Positions 44,082 through 55,890 of a DNA stretch of 64,000 nucleotides are shown here, in pieces. This DNA is from Stenocarpella maydis. Lineage: Eukaryota > Ascomycota > Sordariomycetes > Diaporthales > Diaporthaceae. Where the stretch lies: the NCBI GenBank assembly GCA_002270565.1, contig NQMI01000094.1:1-64000 (forward strand), written 5' to 3'. Made by a program: the position numbers and the translations under genes. Each line of letters begins with the position of its first letter. The stretch's first letter is position 1. A model generated the notes under the pieces. That model ran no database searches. It worked only from the letters and a program-made list of their open reading frames with translations, and was not told the DNA's origin.

Positions 44082-46461
44082 TCATGCGGCAGGCTCTGTG
44101 TGCTGGTTGGCATCTCTGCTCCTCTCCCTCTGCATGGAGATGATCAGATCGGTCAGCCTGTCGATCTTGGAGCTCAGCTCGGCGATCTTGACATCCACGT
44201 CGGACGGGGCGTCCATGTCATCACTGGCGATGTCCGGGTCTGCGGACAGGGCGCTGATGGCCGGGGCTGAGACGGGCCGTAGCGTAGGAGCACCAGCGGC
44301 GACAGAGCGGTGCTGGCGCTGCTGCTGCTGCTGGTAGTGAGCATACGCGGAGGACGACGACGCCGGACGGATCTTGGCCCGGGACAGCATCCGCTGGGCG
44401 GCGGAGCCGCCGCTTCCGCCCAGGGCGGCCTCGAGGCGGGGGCCCTTAAAGCCGGAGAACTCGTCGCTGGCAACCTTGCCCCTGACGAGCTCGTAGAGGA
44501 GAATCACGCCAACGATGGGGAGGTGGGTTGCCTTGAGGAGGAGGATGCGGGATGCGCGGAACTTGTTGTCCGAGGGGAGTACGAGGCGGAGGGGCCGGAA
44601 GATGACGAGGGCGAGGAGGTTGAAGGGGGGGTAGAAATGGGTAAGGCGGTTCGAGGTGGAGGCCTCGAGGACGTAGACCGAGTAGACGTAGAGGTACTCC
44701 TCACGGGCGTGGCTCATGACGCGGGAGAAGGACTGCAGCATTGGGAGTTAGCTTGTAAAGCGTCGAAAAGGCCACAATCTGGCCATTGCTTTTGGTACAG
44801 GCTCCACGAAGGAGATTGTTCTTCCCAAGCAAGTTAAAAGCGTCTCTGGAAGCTTGCTTACGTTCGAGAGCATACCCGTCAGGCTGCCCATCAGGAGGAT
44901 GCTAGAGAGCGTCACGAATATGAACATGAGCGGTGGGCCGAAGAAGGGGTCGATCTGGTTCATGATATCAAACCCAATGTAGCTCGAGCCGTCTGATGGA
45001 AAACCGGTCAGTGAGTGCTTCAAACAGAGGACCCGAAGAAGTGGAGTATAAGAAAGGAGCAAGTCGCTTGGATGTAACAGTCGATATGACAGCGGAGCGC
45101 TGGGGGGTTACTCACAAAATATCTTGGCCAAGTTCATGGTCATAGCAGCGAGAGTCTGCAATGAACGGTAAGCAAGATGCCACTGGATAGGTCGAAAGAG
45201 AACGCATGGGCATACGGAATACTTACAAAGGTTTCGCGGGCAACTAGTGTAAAGGTCGTCAAGAATCCCAGGTACACTATAAAGACGAGGACCATGAATT
45301 TCACGAAATCCTTGCCCATCTCCTTCAGGCAAGGGATAAGTGTGCCCCAGTAGGGAGATAGAGATAGAACGGAGCAGACGCGCGGGACCATAAACAGAGC
45401 CAGCAGGGCCAGGACGTCAAAGGACCGCCCGATGAGCTCCTCATCGTGCTTTGAGAGACCGATGATCCCTTTCGTACAATATTAGCATGGCGTTGAATGC
45501 AGGGGTCCATCTGACTTACTCAGCACAGAGAATAACAATCCGATAAAAATCATGGTAATATCGAACAGGTTCCATATCTGCGGTTGAGAGTGGGTGAGCA
45601 GGCTGTGTCAAGACGCGTGACTGAGCGGAGTGACTGACATCTGCAGCGTAGAAGATCGACCCGGCATCAACATACTCGCTGAGCTCGTCATAAGCAAAAG
45701 CCAGGAACCAAATGTAGAGCAAGACCTCGTTGGCGCTGATCTTCTCTGGGTTCCTCTCAACCAGGACGGAGTAGTACAGAAACAGGAAGATGACGAAGAA
45801 GACGACCTCAAATGACTTGAGGTACTTTGGAACGCGAAGGCGCGAAAACGGGTCGGCGGTTGCCTTGTTGTAGAACCGGGGCCGTTTGTCCGAGTCGACG
45901 GCGAGCTGGTCCCAGAAGACTATGTCCCCATTCCAAATACCAGTAATAATCTTCTGGACGACATGTTGACTGAGGAACCGCTTGGCATCCGCAACAGCAG
46001 CAATCTCGAGGGCGTTGAGCGTGATGAAGGGCTTGGTGGGGTCCTCTTCGTCATCCTCCTGGGACATGGTCAGGCGCGAGATGGACTGCAGCAGCTGGTA
46101 GCGCTTGTTGCTGCCGGTGTTTGTGAACGTCTTCTTGGCCGAGCTGGCAGTGCCGGACAGACTCTGGGCGAGCAGCGCCGTGTTCTCGTCGGCCTCGTGC
46201 GACTGGGGGCCGTTCTCCTCGTCGCGAGGCCCGGCACCAGCACCGTCCACCAATGCGTCGTCCGGACCTGGGATCTCGTAAAGACAGCAGTTCATCACCT
46301 CCCTCTCAGAGAGGTCTGCGGCATTAAGAGTTAGCCTTTACGGTACTGAGGAAGACGTCTGATCAAAACACAGCGTGGAATAGGCCACACCGTGGCCATG
46401 GCTTGCTTTTATTGCATAGGCTCCAGGAAGGAGATTGCTGTTCCCAAGCCGGGTAAAAAAA

Positions 46462-46492
<31 letters not shown>

Positions 46493-47245
46493 TGGCCTCA
46501 GGAAACTGCTTACGGGTCAAGAAGCGCCCTGGGCGAGAACAGAAGTCAGCAATTTCTCGGAGCACGGTTGTTGGAGTAGTGTGAGGCCAGGGGCAAGCGA
46601 CTCACATGCGACGATCTCGGCAGCATTGGCGCGGGCCTCGTTGACGCCCTTATCCTCTGTTGCAGCCCCATAATGCCATCTCAAAGCCCTATGATATGTC
46701 TCTCAGCAAGCCGTATAGTGAGCGAGTGGTGAGTAGATGGGTGCCCGCGCTATGCAGACGAGCGTATGCCCGGATGTGGAGCCATTGCGGATCGGGACGT
46801 CGAAGACGCCCCACAGGACTTGCATGCTGTGGTCCACAGCAGACCGTGCAGAGGGGACCCATCACATCGGCATGACTTACAAGAGGGCATTGACGATGGC
46901 AGGGTGCGAGCACTGGGTGCTGAGATGTTCAACCAAGGTCCTCAGGCCCTGACCTGCACTGGTAGTCCGAAGCTGCTCGAAGGTTACGGGAAGCACAACC
47001 ACGGCATTGAAGTAGCTGCCAGGAGAGACATGATTAGTGTGTGTTCGGAGCAGCGCCCATGTAAAAACCAAGACTGGGCGGTTCCTGACGTACACTGATA
47101 GCTTCTTGATCGTTTCCCTGAAGGAATCATCTTGATTGATGTCAGGCAGGCAGTAGCCGCAGTCGACCCGCATGCCCATTGGGGAGGGCGAGCGTGGGGG
47201 CTCGTCAGCCCCAGGCTGTTTACGTGACTTGACGCGTATGGGCAT
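44082..47245 (-). CDS. yvc1: Yvc1-like TRP-type cation channel
   Basis: Predicted vacuolar calcium-permeable channel, 727 residues (yeast Yvc1 is 675). Ten exons on the minus strand: 47245-47094, 47015-46881, 46688-46606, 46528-46514, 46315-45639, 45577-45520, 45468-45227, 45155-45116, 44992-44862 and 44732-44082. One exon is only 15 nt. The N-terminal cytoplasmic part includes RFLTHLSEREVMNCCLYEIP. Membrane segments follow at about 298-320 (FEVVFFVIFLFLYYSVLV), 328-345, 355-373 (IWNLFDITMIFIGLLFSVL), 388-410, 425-447 (FMVLVFIVYLGFLTTFTLV) and 485-508 (PLMFIFVTLSSILLMGSL), with the pore loop before the last. The C-terminal tail has poly-Gln and ends in a heptad-like helix (KIAELSSKIDRLTDLI). 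Introns 44733-44861 and 46316-46513 are homologous to each other and to one in another gene (introner-like). Confidence 0.9.
44733..44861 (-). repeat. Introner-like intron, copy B (in the channel gene)
   Basis: A 129-bp phase-0 intron with donor GTAAGC, branch GCTAAC and acceptor GCTGCAG. In the sense direction it shares with copies A and C the blocks CAATCTCCTTC, TGGAGCC, a GGCCA...TGGCC inverted repeat, AAGCTAACTC and AATGCTG near the acceptor. It is the shortest copy and lacks the long T-rich tract. Confidence 0.85.
46316..46513 (-). repeat. Introner-like intron, copy A (in the channel gene)
   Basis: A 198-bp phase-1 intron with donor GTAAGC, branch GCTAAC and acceptor GCCGCAG. It aligns to copy C over about 140 bases with few gaps: CAATCTCCTTCCTGGAGCC, CCATGGCCAC, TGTGGCCTATTCC, GCTAACTCTTAATGC. 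A TTTA microsatellite of about nine units lies between the donor and the shared core. Confidence 0.88.
46453..46492. repeat. AAAT microsatellite inside introner copy A
   Basis: A run of AAAT units (TTTA on the gene's sense strand) near the 5' splice site of the intron. In copy C a poly-T/TA tract occupies the same place. Confidence 0.9.
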
Positions 47246-50200
47246 GCTGATAATGGGGCTCCCCAGTTGAGGTCAAGGACGACCGGTTCCAGAGAATAAC
47301 AAGAAGCAACGGCTCGAGGTCTAGATAAGGACCAAGTTCTGGTATACACAAGGCTCAACCCCACACGTGCGAGGCCTGGCTCCTGGGTTCCGTGCTCTGT
47401 GCCCCAGGTTTCCAAGTTTCCTTCCCAGGGGCCTTGATACTACTACACGCTACAGCCCCGCCGGCCTTGCAAGCGTCCTGGTCTGGTCCTGAGACCCCTG
47501 GTCCTAGGCCTCGAGCCTCGACGCCATCTTCCAGCTACGATCCCATCTTGGCTAAATTATTAGTCTCACTCGCAATGCTCTGCCATCTGCACCCTCCACG
47601 GCTGTCAAGCCACCCTCCATCAGGTGACCTAGACTGCCCTAGGTGGGGCGGGGATCTGAGCCAAGGATCCTGAAACTGACGCCAGCAATCGTCGTGATGG
47701 ACGTGCTGTCGTACGGCCGAGGAGGGAGGCCACACGCACGACCGTCAAGGCTTCCCAACTCGCGGCCAGCTTACCGCAGATTCTGAGACGTGTCGCCGGG
47801 TCACACCTCATAGCTCTTCAGGCGGCCAGATTCACAACCTCGCGTGGTACAAAAATATAACCTGATGGCGCTCACATCACAGACACAGGCCTCTGGGTCA
47901 CCCCTAGTCCAGGTCGCTCGCTGCCTGTGGAAGAGTCGATCGCGCCAACCATATTCCGACCACGGCTGCAAGGCTTATGAACTGTCAACACGGCTACATG
48001 TCTCTCTCAGGCCAGGGGTGACCAAGCATCCAGCATTATCTTTGCATCAAGCCCTACTCACCTCACCATGCCCGAGCTACCGACGGCACCGCTTGTTTCA
48101 GCATCGACTCCCAACACCTCCAGTGGACCTTTGCGCTCGTGGCCATGCGAGGTACACAAATCAGTCGTGCACACTCTCGGCCACCCATTCGAGACTCACA
48201 GTGCAACGTCTGACTGCTCTCGGGTGACTCTTGCCTCGGAATGCTTGTCTGTACACCAGAACCGCCGATCCACCATCAGACAAGGTGAGCCACAAGCTAT
48301 CGCTACCGAAGAGCCAGAGGTACCATCCTCGGCCAACAGAGACTGGCTGGGGAACCTCGACCCCATCCATGCCTTCCACAAGCGTAACCCGTCAGGCGAA
48401 CCAGCGCATGCTTCTTGATTCCTTTCGCTCAAAGAATCGGCGACCAACAGTAGCAGCATGTGGTGTCTCAGCACGTCAGGAACATACAGTCTCTGTACTT
48501 GTGGCCAGTGAAGCATGCACGCATCGAGCATGCACATCTGCGGTGCAACTCAATACAACATTCCGAACCGGCATGTCGTCCTACCAAGAGAAAGACAATG
48601 GCCACATGATGCCGGAGCTGGTGATTCCACGCAGGGTCTCCGATCGATATCCCGCCAGCTAGGCAGCCTGCTACCAACACGTCTTGGGAAGAAAGAACGT
48701 TCAAGGCCTTCGAAGCCACCAAGATAAAAGTGACAAGTGATAATAATAACGACGAATCCCAGCCACATTGCCCAACAACGCTGTTTGCCGGGGCAACGCT
48801 CTCCTCACGGCGCATTTCAGCATGTCTTTTCAAAAAGTCTATCCTTTGTGTGTGGCGCAGTTTCTAGCAGATATCGTCCAAGAGGATCGCGATGCTCAAT
48901 GCGGCCTCCTGGGGAAAAGAAGAAGAAGAGAAGAAAAAAAAAAGAATCGGCTGGCTGACAGCCGAGCCCGCGCCAAGGCATAACCACCTATACGACGCGA
49001 GTCTTTGCGAGGTCGATCTCCCCCGGAGCCGATGCCGATCTCCGCTCGAGAGGCATCCGGGTGGTGGCAAACGCTGAGGGACCAACCTCTTGCTGGGACA
49101 TTTAGTTGGAGACAATCCGGTTCATATACGGGCTACATGACAACCCGGACAAAGCTGACATCATGGTGTAGCACTGGCCCGGGGGCCCTTTGGGCAAGTC
49201 TCTCTGACTGCTTTGGGAAAACCCACGAATAACCCCAGTCCCTCGGATCCTAGGCACGATCTGCAAGCCATGGTGATCATGACATGTGAGACACGAATCG
49301 AAGTCTACGTGAGGCATGGGCCCACCAATCATCTAGTCATTAACAGATCACCGGATTCCTATGCAATCTGCCCGTGGCTGCCCTGCTGCCGTTGCTGTTC
49401 TGGACCCCGAATACTGGAATTGTCCTCGCGAGTGCCACCGCCAGGAAACGGCCGGACGACAGATGACAGCGGTACACTACACTAGACGACTGTAGCCGTG
49501 GCGTGGCGATGATCGGAGGGGGGGAGGGGTGCGCGCTATAAAAAGCAGCAGGGGGGCATGTCATCGCCACCTCTGCCGTCAGCCTGCCAGCCTGCCAGCC
49601 TGCCACCCTGCCAGCCTGCCAGCCTGCCACCCTGCCAGCCTGCCACCCTGCCAGCCTGCCACCCTGCCACCCAGCCCAGCTGCCCAGCCAGCCAGCCCGC
49701 GCCTGCAAGCGCACCAGTGTGGCTGTGAGAGCTGACAGCTAGCATTTGACAACGTACTACCAGACTATGTCCCCGGAGCCCGAGCTGCTGGCTTCGCGGA
49801 TCTGCCGAAAGCCGCGGCACTAGTTATAGCAGGTCGGGAGCAGGCCAGACTATTCCTCGCTGCTCTTTCGGAGAAGCTCAGCAATGCACACATCGCACAC
49901 AGACGAATTGCTGCGTTAGGCGCCTAGTTCCATCCATCCTATCCACCAAGTGCAGCAGTAGATGGAGACAAGTGGAATCGCGTTGTGCCGCCGGGCGCCT
50001 CGACTAGCTCTCGAGGACCAACAGGGCAGCAGGGGCAGCAGCCCGATATCCAGCATCACAATGCAGCGACGACGAGACTACTCCACCATCGCTACAAGCC
50101 CCTGGGTTATTTCTGCACAGACAGCACGGCCTTCCGCGCTGGACTCTCCGATGTGCATCCATTCCTGAATAGGACCGCCAGTCGACGCGATACACAATTG

Positions 50201-50722
50201 AGGGCTCTTGGACAATCCAGGCAATCGCATCATCTACACTACGATAGGTATAGTAGGCATCGTGGGCACTACTACACTACGGCCCCCAGGTCCAGGAGAC
50301 CCTTTTGGACCCCTGCGCCATCAACGGCAGCCCTGTGCGAGTGGTGCGTATGTGTGCCTGGCCCTCGATGCATATATTGTATGCACTGATCCCTGCTGAT
50401 GCGCCCATCGCGGATCCCACCCTGTCCTCGCCGCCACTCTTTTTAATCCTCACTGCCTCGCCCGCTCTGCAAGCCTGCCAGCCTGCCAGCCCTGCGTACT
50501 TGTTGGACCTATTCTACCGTTTTCCCACCTTCGCTTGTCCATTTTTGTCTCTTCTTCTATTTCCCTCTCAATCTTTGACAGACCCTTCTCAAGTTGCCGT
50601 CTCGATTCTCGAATCTTTCGCCGAGGCCGGTTCTGCTCACACTCACTCACCTGGGATCCAATCCCCAGCCACCAGTATATTCCTCGATGCCCCGGCAACG
50701 CAGGTAAACAAACCTGTGCAAG
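47246..50722. other. 3.5-kb divergent intergenic region
   Basis: This lies between the starts of the channel gene (-) and the Mid2-like gene (+). No gene is recognised; open frames are short and on both strands. It contains an A-rich purine tract (about 48914-48947) and the 8-bp tandem repeat at about 49575-49672. A TATAAA lies at about 49535. The last 300 bases are CT-rich, as expected of a leader of the downstream gene. Confidence 0.5.
49575..49672. repeat. 8-bp tandem repeat (CCTGCCAG / CCTGCCAC units)
   Basis: About twelve units of CCTGCC followed by AG or AC, in an alternating higher-order pattern, then decaying into CCAG-type repeats. It is non-coding. Confidence 0.85.
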
Positions 50723-52174
50723 ATGCTCCAAGACTTCTTCGTCAGGCTGCCCAAGCCAACGGCGACACTCATCCTCTCTAGCCTCTTCGGGGCAACCTCT
50801 GCACATATCCCTCGCCAGGCACCAACGACAGTTCCGCATCGGCCGTTAAATGTCGTCGCCTACCCGCCGATCGCTGCACCTACGTCACCACCAGTCGATC
50901 TGCCCACGTTAAGCGAGCTCCTGAGGAGGCAGGAAACCAACACGATATGCGGCTACATAGGGGGTGATGCAGACCTGCCCGCAACCTGCTCGGCAGGGTC
51001 ACACTGTGTACTAGACGCAGAACATGGCGCTGTGGGATGTTGTCCGAACGGGGAAGGGACGTGCAGCTCGGGCGTGTTCACGGGCTGTGTCGACCCAAAT
51101 AGTGGGCCTCAGACCGAGGTAAACCCATATGTGTTCACCTGTACGGGCAGCAACGTCTGCTACAAGAACACGTACGAGGGAGGGTACTCGCAATTCGGGT
51201 GCGGCACAGCAAGCGACCTGGCAACGGTTGTCTCAGCTGGCGCAGCTGGGGCGGCCGCCCCTGTCACACTGCCAAGCGAACGCATCAGCTTCACGCAGAG
51301 CCCGAGCAGCCTCGCAACGCCAACCGACCTCGGGTCGGCCACCCGGAGCGACTCGTCATCGACTGGGCGCGCCACTGACACATCCAGCTCATGCCTCACC
51401 ACCATAACAATACCAACCCCCACGAGCAGCAGCGGCCCGACCTCCTCAAGCTCGCAGTCATCATCGTCATCAGACAGCACGCCGGCCAGCACCGCAGCAC
51501 CAGCTGCAAGTGGAGACGGCGGTGGTGGTGTGAGCCGCACGGGGGCCATCGTGGGAGGCACCATCTCAGGGGTGGCCGTGCTCGCGGGCCTTGTTGCCAT
51601 CGGCATCTACCTCTGGCGGAGACGAGCCGCAGGGAACACGCGCAGGGGCCCAGGCCCGAGACCGGGCGACACGCAGTACGTCAGCCCCATGTCGGGTGCG
51701 GCATTCGCGCCGGTCGGCGGGGGCAGCCCGAGCCCGAGCGGAGCGGCGAGCGTGCGTGGCAAGCCCATCACTCACGTCACGGGAGGTCCCAACTCGCGCA
51801 ATACGGTGTGGCAGACGGGCGGGATTGGCGATGATCAGTACCAGTACCCGGTCCAGAACACAGCGGCGGGGACGGGCGGCACGGCGGCGTATCACGGGGC
51901 GTACGCGAGGCCGCCCCCCGACGGCGGCGATGGCGAGGACGAGATCCCGCTGCGGTATGGGTCTCCGGAGATTGATGACTTCTCGCGGGGCTTCCAGGAC
52001 GCCCTGAGCCGCATCGGGGAGGAGGATGAGGAGGACCTCGAGTCGCACGTCAACGGCAGCGGCATGCCCGGGACGAACAATGGCGGCGGGGGCCCCGGGG
52101 GCACCGGAGACCTGGGCGAGAGGCCCGTGTGGCTCCAGTCGCGGCGCCAGTCGCGGAACCAGTTCTGGACATGA
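50723..52174 (+). CDS. Mid2-like single-pass cell-surface protein
   Basis: Putative plasma-membrane wall sensor or adhesin of 483 residues in one exon. An N-terminal signal sequence (hydrophobic ATLILSSLFGATSA at about 14-27) is followed by a Cys-rich ectodomain at about 75-160 with at least ten cysteines (ICGYIGG, CSAGSHCVL, VGCCPNGEGTC, CTGSNVCYK). A Ser/Thr-rich, presumably O-glycosylated stalk runs from about 180 to 270. One transmembrane helix (AIVGGTISGVAVLAGLVAIG, ending IYL) lies at about 277-299, with a WRRRRA-type stop-transfer sequence after it. The cytoplasmic tail is Gly/Pro-rich and acidic. This layout matches fungal Mid2-like proteins, but the ectodomain is not WSC. The specific ligand or pathway is unknown. 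Confidence 0.8.
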   Translation: MLQDFFVRLPKPTATLILSSLFGATSAHIPRQAPTTVPHRPLNVVAYPPIAAPTSPPVDLPTLSELLRRQETNTICGYIGGDADLPATCSAGSHCVLDAEHGAVGCCPNGEGTCSSGVFTGCVDPNSGPQTEVNPYVFTCTGSNVCYKNTYEGGYSQFGCGTASDLATVVSAGAAGAAAPVTLPSERISFTQSPSSLATPTDLGSATRSDSSSTGRATDTSSSCLTTITIPTPTSSSGPTSSSSQSSSSSDSTPASTAAPAASGDGGGGVSRTGAIVGGTISGVAVLAGLVAIGIYLWRRRAAGNTRRGPGPRPGDTQYVSPMSGAAFAPVGGGSPSPSGAASVRGKPITHVTGGPNSRNTVWQTGGIGDDQYQYPVQNTAAGTGGTAAYHGAYARPPPDGGDGEDEIPLRYGSPEIDDFSRGFQDALSRIGEEDEEDLESHVNGSGMPGTNNGGGGPGGTGDLGERPVWLQSRRQSRNQFWT

Positions 52175-53039
52175 GAAACACGAGAAAAGACGCCTGGACT
52201 ATTGTCATGAGACGGTGGTTATGGGTTGTGCCCGTGTCAAGGGCCGTGGGGGGGTTTGCGACCTCGATAATACGCGAATTCTATAGACGACATGAGCGAT
52301 GTTCTCACGAAACTACGGCGCCATACCTAAGGTCGAGGACTAATGAATGCATATAGGCCTCGAACGGAAGATGCATATTCTAAGCCAAGCTTGGGTTCTC
52401 CCGCAACGCGAGCAGTCGTTGAGCGAAGCGTGATTGACTGAATGACTCTTGGTTCTCGAGGTGTTGTGACAGACGGGTGGGCCAAAATCTTTCCACGGGA
52501 TATTTATTGCGGACGGCCGAGAAAAAGGCCAACGAGGAAGCGAGCGATGCCCGTCGAAGGTTGGTAGGCTAACAACCAAGACAGCAAGACTGTGAGGCGG
52601 GACGGCCGAACGATGGCATATGTCCTGACGTCAGAAGGCCAGAGTGGTTACACCGTCGCCTCCAGGCGGCAAGCTCTGCCCCTCCTTGCCCTGGCCGTAG
52701 CGGGGCAGCCGTCGAGCTTGACCGGCCCTCCCCTTGTCATTGATTCTTGCATCATGACGGACCAAAGCCTCGGTCCACTGCTCTCTGGGGGCTCCAGCCG
52801 ATCGGGGCTTACAAATGGTACGGTCTTTCCTATCGCCCATAGGAGAAGCCATCTATGCTGGCTGTTGTATAAGAAGGCTCGGGCCCAAGATGGACATGTG
52901 AAGAAGCTGGTAGACACACACAGACATACAGGCCATCATCAATTGATTTACAATTCAACCTCGACCAATCCTCCAATCTAGCTCAACCATAAACATCACA
53001 CCACTTGTTGTCGCAACTCGTCCTCTTCAATACGCGGCC
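52175..53039. other. Intergenic region between the Mid2-like and glyoxalase genes
   Basis: Both flanking genes are on the plus strand, so this holds the 3' UTR of the first and the promoter of the second. No other gene is seen. Confidence 0.5.
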
Positions 53040-53495
53040 ATGGCTCCCAAGATTCTCGTCGTCCTCACCTCCCACAACCAGCTGGGAACCACTGGCAAGC
53101 CTACCGGATGGGTATGATATTTCCGCCCCCCCCCCCCCCCAAAAAAAAAGGACCTGTGCTAACAAGACATAATCCGCAGTACCTTGTAAGCTGCCCACAT
53201 GCTGTTGAAAACAACCCGGCTGTCTGGTCGGGACCCATCAGTCAACTGACCCTCCCACCTTCCAGCCTGAGCTTGCGCACCCCTACGATATCTTCGTGAA
53301 GTTCGGCGTCGAGCTGGAGTTCGCGTCCCCCAAGGGCGGCGTCGCTCCCCTCGACCCCGGCAGCGTCGAGATGTTCAAGAAGGACGAGAGCTCCGTCAAC
53401 TTCCTCAACAACCACAAGAACCTCTGGGAGAACACCAAGCCCCTCTCCCAGTTCGCCGACGCGGCCGCCAAGTTCGACGCCGTCTTCTGTGCGTA

Positions 53496-53537
<42 letters not shown>

Positions 53538-53977
53538 ACAGCCCCAAAGAAGAGTCTGACAAAAAACCCCCCCCCCCACCCACAGACCCCGGAGGCCACG
53601 GCCCAATGTTCGACCTGGCCACCGACGCGACGTCGCAGAAGCTCATCGCCGACTTCGCCTCCAAGGGCAAGGTCGTCGCCGCGGTGTGCCACGGCCCGGC
53701 CGCGTTCGTCAACGTCAAGCTGGCCGACGGCACGCACCTGCTCAAGGACAGGGAGGTCACCGGCTTCAGCAACGCCGAGGAGGACCAGGTGCAGCTGAGC
53801 AGCTACATGCCCTTCATGCTGGAGACGGAGCTCGACAAGGTGTCTGGCGGCAAGTACGTCAAGGCCGCCGAGCCCTGGGGGGAGAAGGTCGCCGTTGCGG
53901 GCAACGTCATCACGGGGCAGAACCCGGCATCGGCGCATGCCATTGGCGAGGCTGTCATCAAGGCTCTCAAGGCCTAG
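53040..53977 (+). CDS. DJ-1/PfpI-family glutathione-independent glyoxalase (Hsp31-like)
   Basis: Predicted methylglyoxalase/chaperone of the Hsp31-GLX3 type, 230 residues, cytosolic. Exons 53040-53111, 53180-53185, 53266-53488 and 53586-53977; all phases close. The second exon is only six bases (TACCTT, residues Tyr25-Leu26). It rebuilds the conserved TGWYLPELAHPY, which holds the active-site Glu28. The nucleophile Cys135 sits in the elbow AAVCHGPAAF and is followed by its His. FYPGGHGPMFDL is rebuilt across the third intron, and GQNPASAHAIGEAVIKAL closes the fold. Intron 1 contains adjoining poly-C and poly-A runs, and intron 3 contains a TC microsatellite and a C run, so intron lengths may vary between strains. 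Skipping the microexon would keep the frame but delete Tyr-Leu. Confidence 0.93.
53504..53535. repeat. (TC)n microsatellite in intron 3 of the glyoxalase gene
   Basis: A TC run of about 15 units between the donor and a C-rich tract. It probably works as an extended polypyrimidine tract. Confidence 0.9.
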
Positions 53978-54633
53978 AGGGGTTTGCTCGCCCGGGTCTT
54001 TGGGTATCAAATGTAGTAAATATAATTCGCCAGAGCAGTGCTCGGAGGATCCATGGTCTGCAGTGTGGGTACCGCGTTCATATCCTGGAGATCCTGACGG
54101 AGCTTCTAATAGCAGTTCACCCACCTCGACTACCTGCCTGTCAGCAATCACAGGCGTAACTTTGGGAGAGCAGACGGGATCCCGTATATCGTATATAATT
54201 GTGTCCACTTCGTATGTGCCAGTTCCAAGGGTTTGAGAGTTTATATTGCCAATCCGAGACACCCAACCGGTGAGACTGGGCAGGGCCAATCCCACGTGCT
54301 TCTCCGGGGTGCGCTGTCTGAGGTGAGTCTCGGACCACGCGCTCACGAGTCCTGGATTATTGTAGGCTTTGGATGCACCAACAGACCCAGCCAGTCCCGG
54401 GTGATGTGAAGTAAGCTCGGATATGTGTATAGCATGTACGTATCATTTATAAGTGCTCGAGGCTGTCTGGCCTCAGTCTACGAGACTCACCATGTTCTAT
54501 TCACATGCGATTCTACGTGACAAACTATCTCTCACGAATACCACAAACTGAACCTCATCAAAAGTGCGCCGCCCTAGATTCAAAAAGGAAACCCCCCCCC
54601 CAGGCGAGACGCGTAAAGGGGGGGGGGGAAGGC
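53978..54633. other. Convergent 3' intergenic region
   Basis: This lies between the glyoxalase gene (+) and the R3H-associated gene (-). A C run (about 54591-54601) and a G run (about 54619-54628) lie about 20 bases apart and form an inverted repeat just beyond the stop codon of the minus-strand gene. Confidence 0.5.
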
Positions 54634-55890
54634 TCAGAAAAGCTCCCAAAGCGGACGAGGGAGCGCAGTGCGTATCTTGAGGTCGACGTCTCGCACGCCG
54701 ACATAGACACACCTCCGCCCCGGGCTCCCCACGGTGACAGACCGCGATACGAGCCCGTAGTAGCCCGAGATGGAGTGCGCAAGCCACCTCTTGAACGCGC
54801 TGCTCCCGTCGTCGTCCTCGGGCGACGAGTGGAACACCATGCCGCGGTCGACGGCCGTCCCGTCGTGCACCTCGCGGTGCGCCGACTTCCAGGCGGGCGG
54901 GGCATCCCGGGGCCCCGCCGCCGCCTTCTTGCGCCCCACAAAGACAACCTCGTCGTCCGACTCGTCCGACTCGTCCTCGGCCACGGGCGCCTCGCCCGCG
55001 ACGCGGTGCTGCTCGGCCAGGAACTCGCGCACCGGCTCCTCGAGCGCGCGGAGCCAGCCCTTGACGCCGGGGGTGCGCTTGACCGTGTCTCGGAGCTCAC
55101 GGGGCACCCTGCCCGCCGTGTTGCCCGCCCGGCTGTTGTTGTTCTTCTTGTTGTCGCTGCGCGCCGCCGCCACCTCGCTGAGCCCGCGGTCCCAGAACCC
55201 CGCGACGTGGTAGGGGACGTGATGTACCGGGTAGACGGGCCGCGGCTCCCAGTCCCGCGGCTCTGGGGGCTCGACGTTGGGCACGTCGGTCAGGCGCTTC
55301 ATGTCGTAGCGCCTGCGCTGCCGGGAGCCCTCCTTGCCCTTTAGGAGGAGCTCGCGGCGGCGGAGGGAGTCGCGGCGCGGCGGGGGCCGGCGTGGCGGGG
55401 TGACGGCGTCTATTGTGGCGTGCTTCCCATCGGCTGCGGCGATGATCACTCGCGCGGTGGTGGTTGTCGCTTTGGGGTTGTTGGCGTGCTCATCGAGGGG
55501 GATGGCGAGGGGCCTCCCTGTCGTGCCGACCGCGGCCGGTGAGACGCTTAGGGCCTCGAGGGCCGAGATGGTCCACGCTTCGATGTCAACTGCGCCGGAG
55601 GCCGCGGAAGCAGGCTGCTGCTGATGCTGCTGATGCGACGAGGCATTCTGGTCCAGCATCAAGAGTCAGCTTTTAAAGAACCAAGGGAGAAGCTTCATTC
55701 AAAGACAACGCGGAATGGACCACAGTGTGGCCATGGCTTTCGAGACATGGGCTCCAGGGAGGAGATTGTTATTCCTAAACAGTTTAAAAATATATATAAA
55801 AAAAAAAAGGCTCCAGAAGCTGACCTGCGGATGGGCGGCGGGCTGCGAGTGCAACGCGGGGGGCGGAGGAACGGCACTGTAGATGGCCAT
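54634..55890 (-). CDS. R3H-associated-domain protein
   Basis: A 359-residue protein in two exons, 55890-55825 and 55647-54634. The first exon encodes MAIYSAVPPPPALHSQPAAH, a start typical of this fungal family. It is joined in phase 0 to NASSHQQHQQQ and then VDIEAWTISALEALSV. The R3H-associated N-terminal module is at about 110-165 (RRRELLLKGKEGSRQRRRYD, then PVYPVHHVPYHVAGFWD). The C terminus (FKRWLAHSISGYYGLVSRSV) resembles a degenerate R3H-type helix pair. Nucleic-acid binding is likely from the family, but the role is unknown. The single intron (55648-55824) is introner-like copy C, homologous to two introns of the channel gene 8-11 kb away. The gene is very GC-rich, which leaves long antisense frames open. 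Confidence 0.85.
55648..55824 (-). repeat. Introner-like intron, copy C (in the R3H-associated gene)
   Basis: A 177-bp phase-0 intron with donor GTCAGC, branch GCTGAC and acceptor GACCAG. It shares with copy A the blocks CAATCTCC, TGGAGCC, AAGCCATGGCCAC, TGTGG, ATTCC and AGCTGACTCTTGATGC. A poly-T/TA tract lies between the donor and the shared core, where copy A has its TTTA repeats. The TTCTGGAGCC just after the donor repeats part of the core. Confidence 0.88.

Follow-up and report, generated by a model that had tools for sequence, protein, structure and literature searches.

A large family of putative introner-like elements with biased insertion sites in Stenocarpella maydis

Introduction

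The question of where new spliceosomal introns come from is an old one, and introners of fungi, also called introner-like elements (ILEs), are a main candidate for an RNA-based route. The published accounts are represented here and below by excerpts. The ILEs of Dothideomycetes (Fulvia fulva, Dothistroma septosporum and Zymoseptoria tritici) are described there as similar spliceosomal introns in unrelated genes, sometimes two per gene, whose copies decay towards ordinary introns (PMC4457414). Among Sordariomycetes, the sister stwintrons and cropped sister introns of Hypoxylaceae and Xylariaceae are seamless repeated introns at new positions, with a fold-back symmetry that decays in older copies and no target-site duplications (TSDs) (PMC8469720, PMC12403724). 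In this study, we analyzed a window of 64,000 nucleotides from Stenocarpella maydis (contig NQMI01000094.1, positions 1 to 64,000; contig C306 in our numbering), in which three introns of two unrelated genes, here named A, B and C, are homologous and almost certainly belong to an introner family, as judged from their sequences and from those of their relatives in the genome.

Compared by its features, the family shares much with each of these systems and also differs from them. The Dothideomycete ILEs are said, second-hand, to prefer AG/GY sites (PMC8469720), which resembles the smaller of the two subfamilies that we distinguish (F2) and not the larger one (F1), which favours CA^T (the caret marks the insertion point); moreover, the present host is a Sordariomycete. 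The sister stwintrons are mostly nested double introns with terminal inverted repeats (TIRs) of 45-55 nt or NTIRE stems and with sites described as unbiased, whereas the copies described here are single introns with no convincing long TIR and a clear F1 target bias. Introners across eukaryotes are alike in that similarity runs up to both splice sites, and ascomycetes form an outlier group reported to have no TIRs or TSDs, unlike non-ascomycete introners, which mostly have one or the other (PMC9860276). Fungal introner sites are thus described in these excerpts as unbiased, or second-hand as AG/GY-preferring, and without transposition signature (PMC8469720, PMC9860276, PMC12403724). Two features appear new relative to the fungal accounts, namely the preference of F1 for CA^T as a target and a host that is Diaporthe-like, a distinction drawn from features and not from sequence comparison. 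A search of the open-licence literature, which did not extend to supplementary species lists, found no paper that brings together Diaporthe and introners; in the same literature, "Diaporthe" with "intron gain" retrieved only titles concerning other fungi, and "introner-like" with "Sordariomycetes" retrieved only Hypoxylaceae stwintrons and Pleosporales.

Results

Homologous introns in two genes of the window

The three introns, their host genes and two ordinary introns used as negative controls are as follows.

44733..44861, minus strand: intron A, subfamily F1, 129 nt, phase 0, in the channel gene; borders GAAC^GTAAGC..GCTGCAG^TCC
46316..46513, minus strand: intron B, subfamily F1, 198 nt, phase 1, in the channel gene; borders ACCC^GTAAGC..GCCGCAG^ACC
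55648..55824, minus strand: intron C, subfamily F2, 177 nt, phase 0, in the R3H-associated gene; borders CGCAG^GTCAGC..GGACCAG^AATGC
44082..47245, minus strand: host gene of A and B, a YVC1-type calcium channel (gene model and homologues; nine introns, 727 aa when spliced)
54634..55890, minus strand: host gene of C, an R3H-associated N-terminal domain protein (359 aa when spliced; C is its single intron)
46689..46880, minus strand: ordinary channel-gene intron, negative control
44993..45115, minus strand: ordinary channel-gene intron, negative control

The original prediction had placed three homologous introns at these positions in the same orientation, and BLASTN within the window bore this out (E=7.5e-17 for B and C, 4.7e-13 for A and B, 4.4e-11 for A and C), while none of them matched the remainder of the window with E below 0.11. 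The short sequence blocks that it named as shared are present in the alignment, and each intron indeed lies exactly between its donor (GTAAGC, GTAAGC and GTCAGC, respectively) and an acceptor, as read directly from the borders and from the continuity of the spliced proteins. It was also claimed that the introns align along most of their length; all three do align, but in A about 30 nt are missing from the 3' half, and B carries a TTTA-type expansion close to its 5' end. The further claim that the other introns of the window share no sequence was covered in part: it holds for the two ordinary channel-gene introns listed above, each of which had a single match in the whole genome, namely itself. 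The possibility that B is a within-gene duplicate of A was rejected, the match between A and B being similar to that of either with C.

The nine introns of the channel gene comprise A, B and seven ordinary ones. Both protein junctions restored by removing the two introners (WRFLT^HLSERE and LTGMLSN^SFSRV) are without gaps in 12 aligned relatives out of 120 listed, and among the matches listed the nearest to the spliced channel protein are Diaporthe proteins, with 80-88% identity in the five that are named. In the R3H-associated gene, for which named Diaporthe proteins are also among the nearest matches, intron C lies 22 codons into the reading frame and would lead to a stop at codon 64 if retained. 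Its junction is without a gap in 24 aligned relatives, in a low-complexity stretch with gaps close by. A channel model from Diaporthe ampelina (P0002) has a 16-residue insertion at the site of the ordinary intron 46689-46880, probably a stretch of intron that the annotation left unspliced.

A genome-wide family

We searched a genome of 53.5 Mb in 312 contigs, in which the window corresponds to C306 positions 1-64000. Intron C yielded 40 scored matches out of 53 candidates, and patterns for the acceptor end, donor end and centre of the element yielded 131 (62+69), 97 and 78 matches, compared to 1, 0 and 0 in the respective controls, by which chance similarity is ruled out. The acceptor-end pattern had no match in viral contigs. 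Taken together, the listed pattern matches (100 of 131, 97 of 97 and 78 of 78) and the intron-C matches define 148 distinct places on 79 contigs, so that the core predicted to recur was found in well over 100 places; for comparison, at least five copies are asked of an introner family (PMC9860276 as cited by PMC12403724). Since 47 donor-end matches coincide with centre matches, capture-recapture gives a rough estimate of 161, which is too low because copies decay unevenly and intron A does not appear in any of the pattern lists. The family probably has 150-200 copies or more.

For closer analysis, we sampled 30 loci from the intron-C search, 60 regions around further places and the window. A profile search of these produced 98 matches after removal of L001, which is intron C of the window itself; 59 of the 60 regions had a clear match, and the remaining one (L074) contains only a weak 3' fragment. 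Nine of the 98 matches lack GT or AG and were left out, resulting in 89 copies for the intron tests. L035, an identical duplicate of L034, was omitted from the site, tree and folding counts, and L034 was also omitted from the comparison of the TTCC and TTCT groups described below.

The best reading phase was scored independently upstream and downstream of each of the 89 copies. The two phases agree across the copy in 76 of them, where about one third would be expected, and the sense strand scores highest upstream in 78 and downstream in 70. Retention would introduce an in-frame stop in 84 copies, and a single copy is readable unspliced. When the junction peptides of 19 copies were scanned against Pfam, nine had a domain match across the junction, one had a match starting there and nine had none; four of the across-junction matches (CoA-ligase, deaminase, copper amine oxidase and amino acid permease) were above Pfam's own cut-off. 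In a glycoside hydrolase family 43 (GH43) gene that hosts the copy L028, the junction is without a gap in 11 aligned relatives, one of which carries an additional residue a little upstream of it. As the copies are flush with the exons, the proteins continue after their removal, and the family is predicted to be spliced out precisely with restoration of the frame. The sampled copies thus coincide with introns of coding sequence, a coincidence that the original prediction had asked to be checked, and are mostly sense-oriented.

Similarity among the copies is confined to the segment between the splice sites: their 400-nt flanks share nothing detectable, except for those of L034 and L035. These two loci (on C110, near 34.3 and 62.6 kb) have identical 400-nt flanks on opposite strands and constitute a duplicated segment, in which the element departs from the family in its first nucleotides and the flanks have non-coding scores. 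An ordinary repeat residing inside old introns is ruled out by the confinement of the similarity. More broadly, the view that a common dispersed repeat landed in old introns, or that the introns are ancient and shared, has nothing beyond the repeat nature itself to recommend it and is very improbable, given that the similarity stops at both splice sites, that the host genes are unrelated, that two ordinary introns have no relatives and that paralogues are uninterrupted at two sites, as follows.

At the insertion point of a copy in a transporter gene (L057), 16 of 18 same-genome matches other than the host cross without a stop. For a second transporter (L076), 59 of 80 non-host matches do so, and none of the 66 matches spanning the site has extra length of more than 9 nt. 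Among the matches listed, the R3H-associated gene has 16 proteins from the 'lgn' source only that are full length across the C site, with longest contigs of 25-151 kb, whereas for the channel gene with its nine introns there are six among 120 listed, with longest contigs of 2.6-9.8 kb. Such a contrast would be expected from gene calling that disregards introns, and the 16 R3H-associated proteins therefore probably come from unbroken genes. If, as we infer, the 'lgn' source does ignore introns, intron C is probably absent from these relatives. With paralogues uninterrupted at both sites compared, the members of the family look like gained introns, and the introner reading put forward for the three window introns is upheld by the genome-wide family, its coincidence with coding-sequence introns and these uninterrupted paralogues.

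Subfamilies, age and predicted fold

The copies read as single GT..AG introns with an acceptor that is usually CAG, and they fall into two subfamilies, for which we coined the labels F1 and F2. The F1 element, about 160 nt long, opens with a GTAAGC donor and closes with GCTGCAG; in between lie a central imperfect inverted repeat (GCCATGGCCACACTATGGCC) and a branch-point-like GCTGAC, the A of which is 15 nt from the end. F2 accounts for 12 of the 89 two-ended copies, including intron C, and mostly starts with GTCAGC and ends with GGACCAG or GGACTAG. A further F2 copy (L002) is located at C306:78749-78921, about 15 kb past the window on the same contig.

The original prediction took three copies within 11 kb as a sign of recent activity, which the wider sample does not bear out. 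Across 88 copies, the median identity to the nearest neighbour is 87%, the best pair reaches 96.3%, and no recent burst is apparent among them; fungal families judged active have 98-99% identity in the excerpt of PMC4457414. The spacing of copies is mildly above chance, with 13 adjacent pairs less than 12 kb apart versus about five expected. With identities of 0.76 and 0.73 to the F1 consensus, respectively, introns A and B rank with the more diverged copies.

For the F1 consensus, a long hairpin with imperfect pairing is predicted (-46 kcal/mol, z=-3.05), equalled by 2 of 200 shuffles. Mean z values are -1.73 for 76 F1 copies and -1.72 for 12 F2 copies, -1.29 for the antisense strand, and 0.02 and 0.05 for the controls (the seven ordinary channel-gene introns and 89 exon stretches, respectively). 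The share of consensus pairs that a copy can form drops with its divergence (rho 0.88), and the fold, as modelled, looks ancestral and appears to decay in place. Whole-element self-complementarity of the F1 consensus is not above that of shuffles. No known structured RNA was recognized by Rfam up to E=1 in 44600-46600, a region that holds A and B only.

Insertion sites

The sites of F1 are strongly biased. CA^T is present at 24 of 76 sites, against an expectation of 1.72 calculated from positions of matching phase within the same exons (p=4e-21; about 14-fold). C^AT is found at seven sites (1.27 expected) and T at +1 at 46 (17.5 expected), and there is no enrichment of AG^ (five sites, 4.7 expected). 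Among ordinary-intron candidates from the same DNA (n=104), a set that recovers four of the seven ordinary channel-gene introns and surely includes false ones (the finder returns 62 or 104 by threshold), the counts are 1 for CA^T and 11 each for T at +1 and AG^. The F1 bias is therefore a feature of the introners that ordinary exon ends do not share, and it points to choice of target. Any proposed mechanism must account for CA^T. No inheritance of exon flanks between nearest relatives was detected (lowest p over 18 positions, 0.077).

In F2, all 12 copies have AG directly upstream, and the insert has AG on either side. The GTCAGC donor is a weak one; an upstream AG would strengthen U1 pairing and may be needed to support this donor. 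No TSD was observed for F1, with flush junctions in all 76 copies. A duplicated CAGT target for F1 was rejected by reasoning, as it would cost one base of the frame.

Discussion

Our explanation combines an introner family, RNA-based copying and non-random insertion, and as a whole we regard it as reasonably probable, with the RNA route on its own an even or slightly better than even proposition. The excised intron RNA would be the most likely mobile form. It might be reverse-spliced or ligated into transcribed coding DNA or RNA and then copied into DNA, with insertion being non-random in that F1 would favour CA^T and F2 positions after AG. The hairpin-like consensus fold may aid survival or recognition of the mobile RNA and would not be kept once a copy resides in a gene. 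Insertion that is flush, mostly sense and, for F1, without duplication fits the RNA-based models for fungal introners as given in the excerpts (PMC8469720, PMC9860276, PMC12403724).

These same features bear on a DNA-based alternative, namely a non-autonomous DNA transposon (a MITE-like introner, after miniature inverted-repeat transposable elements) that is moved by a transposase and survives in genes only where it splices well. Most introner families outside ascomycetes have TSDs or TIRs (PMC9860276, in the excerpt), and a target motif would suit a site-choosing enzyme. In F2, the AG on both sides could be a 2-nt duplication, and an 8-nt complement between the donor and the branch-point element, its 3' arm lying 17 nt from the end, is found as an inverted match in nine of 12 copies against 6% of shuffles. 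For F1, however, the junctions are flush (e.g., CA^..^T) and conserved proteins are continuous across the joined codons, which leaves no space for a duplication, and terminal complementarity is within the range of shuffles. Furthermore, most of the copies sampled are in sense orientation within coding sequence, and none of the 98 matches is a longer copy, an autonomous partner not having been searched for otherwise. DNA transposition is thus less likely for F1 and is least disfavoured for F2, and for the family as a whole we consider it unlikely.

Flush F1 insertion without duplication and a stable consensus fold also match the proposals in the excerpts of PMC8469720 and PMC12403724 for the stwintrons of Hypoxylaceae, in which excised intron RNA, or a DNA copy of it, is captured by ligation during repair of a chance double-strand break. 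Breaks would be expected between genes too, and those excerpts report random sites without exon bias, whereas CA^T is at about 14 times expectation here. Repair capture is accordingly a rather poor candidate for this family.

Returning to RNA-based copying with site choice, several observations weigh against it. Plain reverse splicing leaves the CA^T target unexplained, and both CA^T and C^AT are absent from 45 of the 76 F1 sites. Stricter ordinary-intron finders, later replaced, gave CA^T in 0 of 5, 1 of 8 and 1 of 13 candidates. Phases disagree in 13 of the 89 copies; some of these, or of the nine matches without GT or AG, may lie outside genes. Altered copies will have been missed because copies were picked by similarity to known ones, intron A itself being absent from the pattern lists. 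With regard to the fold, RNAalifold on 58 copies found no conserved pairs and no covariation, and the rate of change at paired positions (0.146) is similar to that at unpaired ones (0.130), so that any role of the fold would be a putative one. Finally, the CA^T bias is uneven: it is present in 14 of 24 sites of the TTCC group of F1 and in 10 of 51 of the TTCT group (p=0.0013), and in 6 of the 39 copies closest to the consensus, 9 of the 23 in the middle and 9 of the 14 most diverged.

A bias that is stronger in the TTCC group and in diverged copies allows that the preference has changed, or that the bias may reflect survival. Under selection for splicing, the site motifs would mark those copies that survived in a helpful exon context and not a choice of target. 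Survivorship could produce the unevenness just described, and for F2 it is plausible that AG aids the weak GTCAGC donor. Nevertheless, the F1 sites differ from those of ordinary-intron candidates in both CA^T (24/76 versus 1/104) and T at +1 (46/76 versus 11/104), and we find this account of the motifs doubtful.

Apart from survival, the site preferences may be read as a direct property of the mobile element. On a speculative model to which we give a low probability, each subfamily would insert flush at its own short site (CA^T for F1, AG^ for F2), much like a nuclear counterpart of group II intron retrohoming. If this were true, new introns would arise from a site-choosing element and not from random reverse splicing or random breaks. 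A large family whose target runs contrary to the splice-site consensus would in any case offer a testable signature.

Minor observations on individual loci

Several members of one transporter family are located near introner copies, for example at C246:362602, C240:185571 and C248:49275, and this family may be frequently targeted. At L071 (C1:904500-907700), there are three element matches within 3.2 kb, two of which are partial and decayed. The GH43 gene of L028 (C99, around 64.3-67.4 kb) finds its nearest homologues, out of 120 listed, in Colletotrichum (up to 87%); none of the 120 is a named Diaporthe protein, and the gene may be patchily distributed or transferred.

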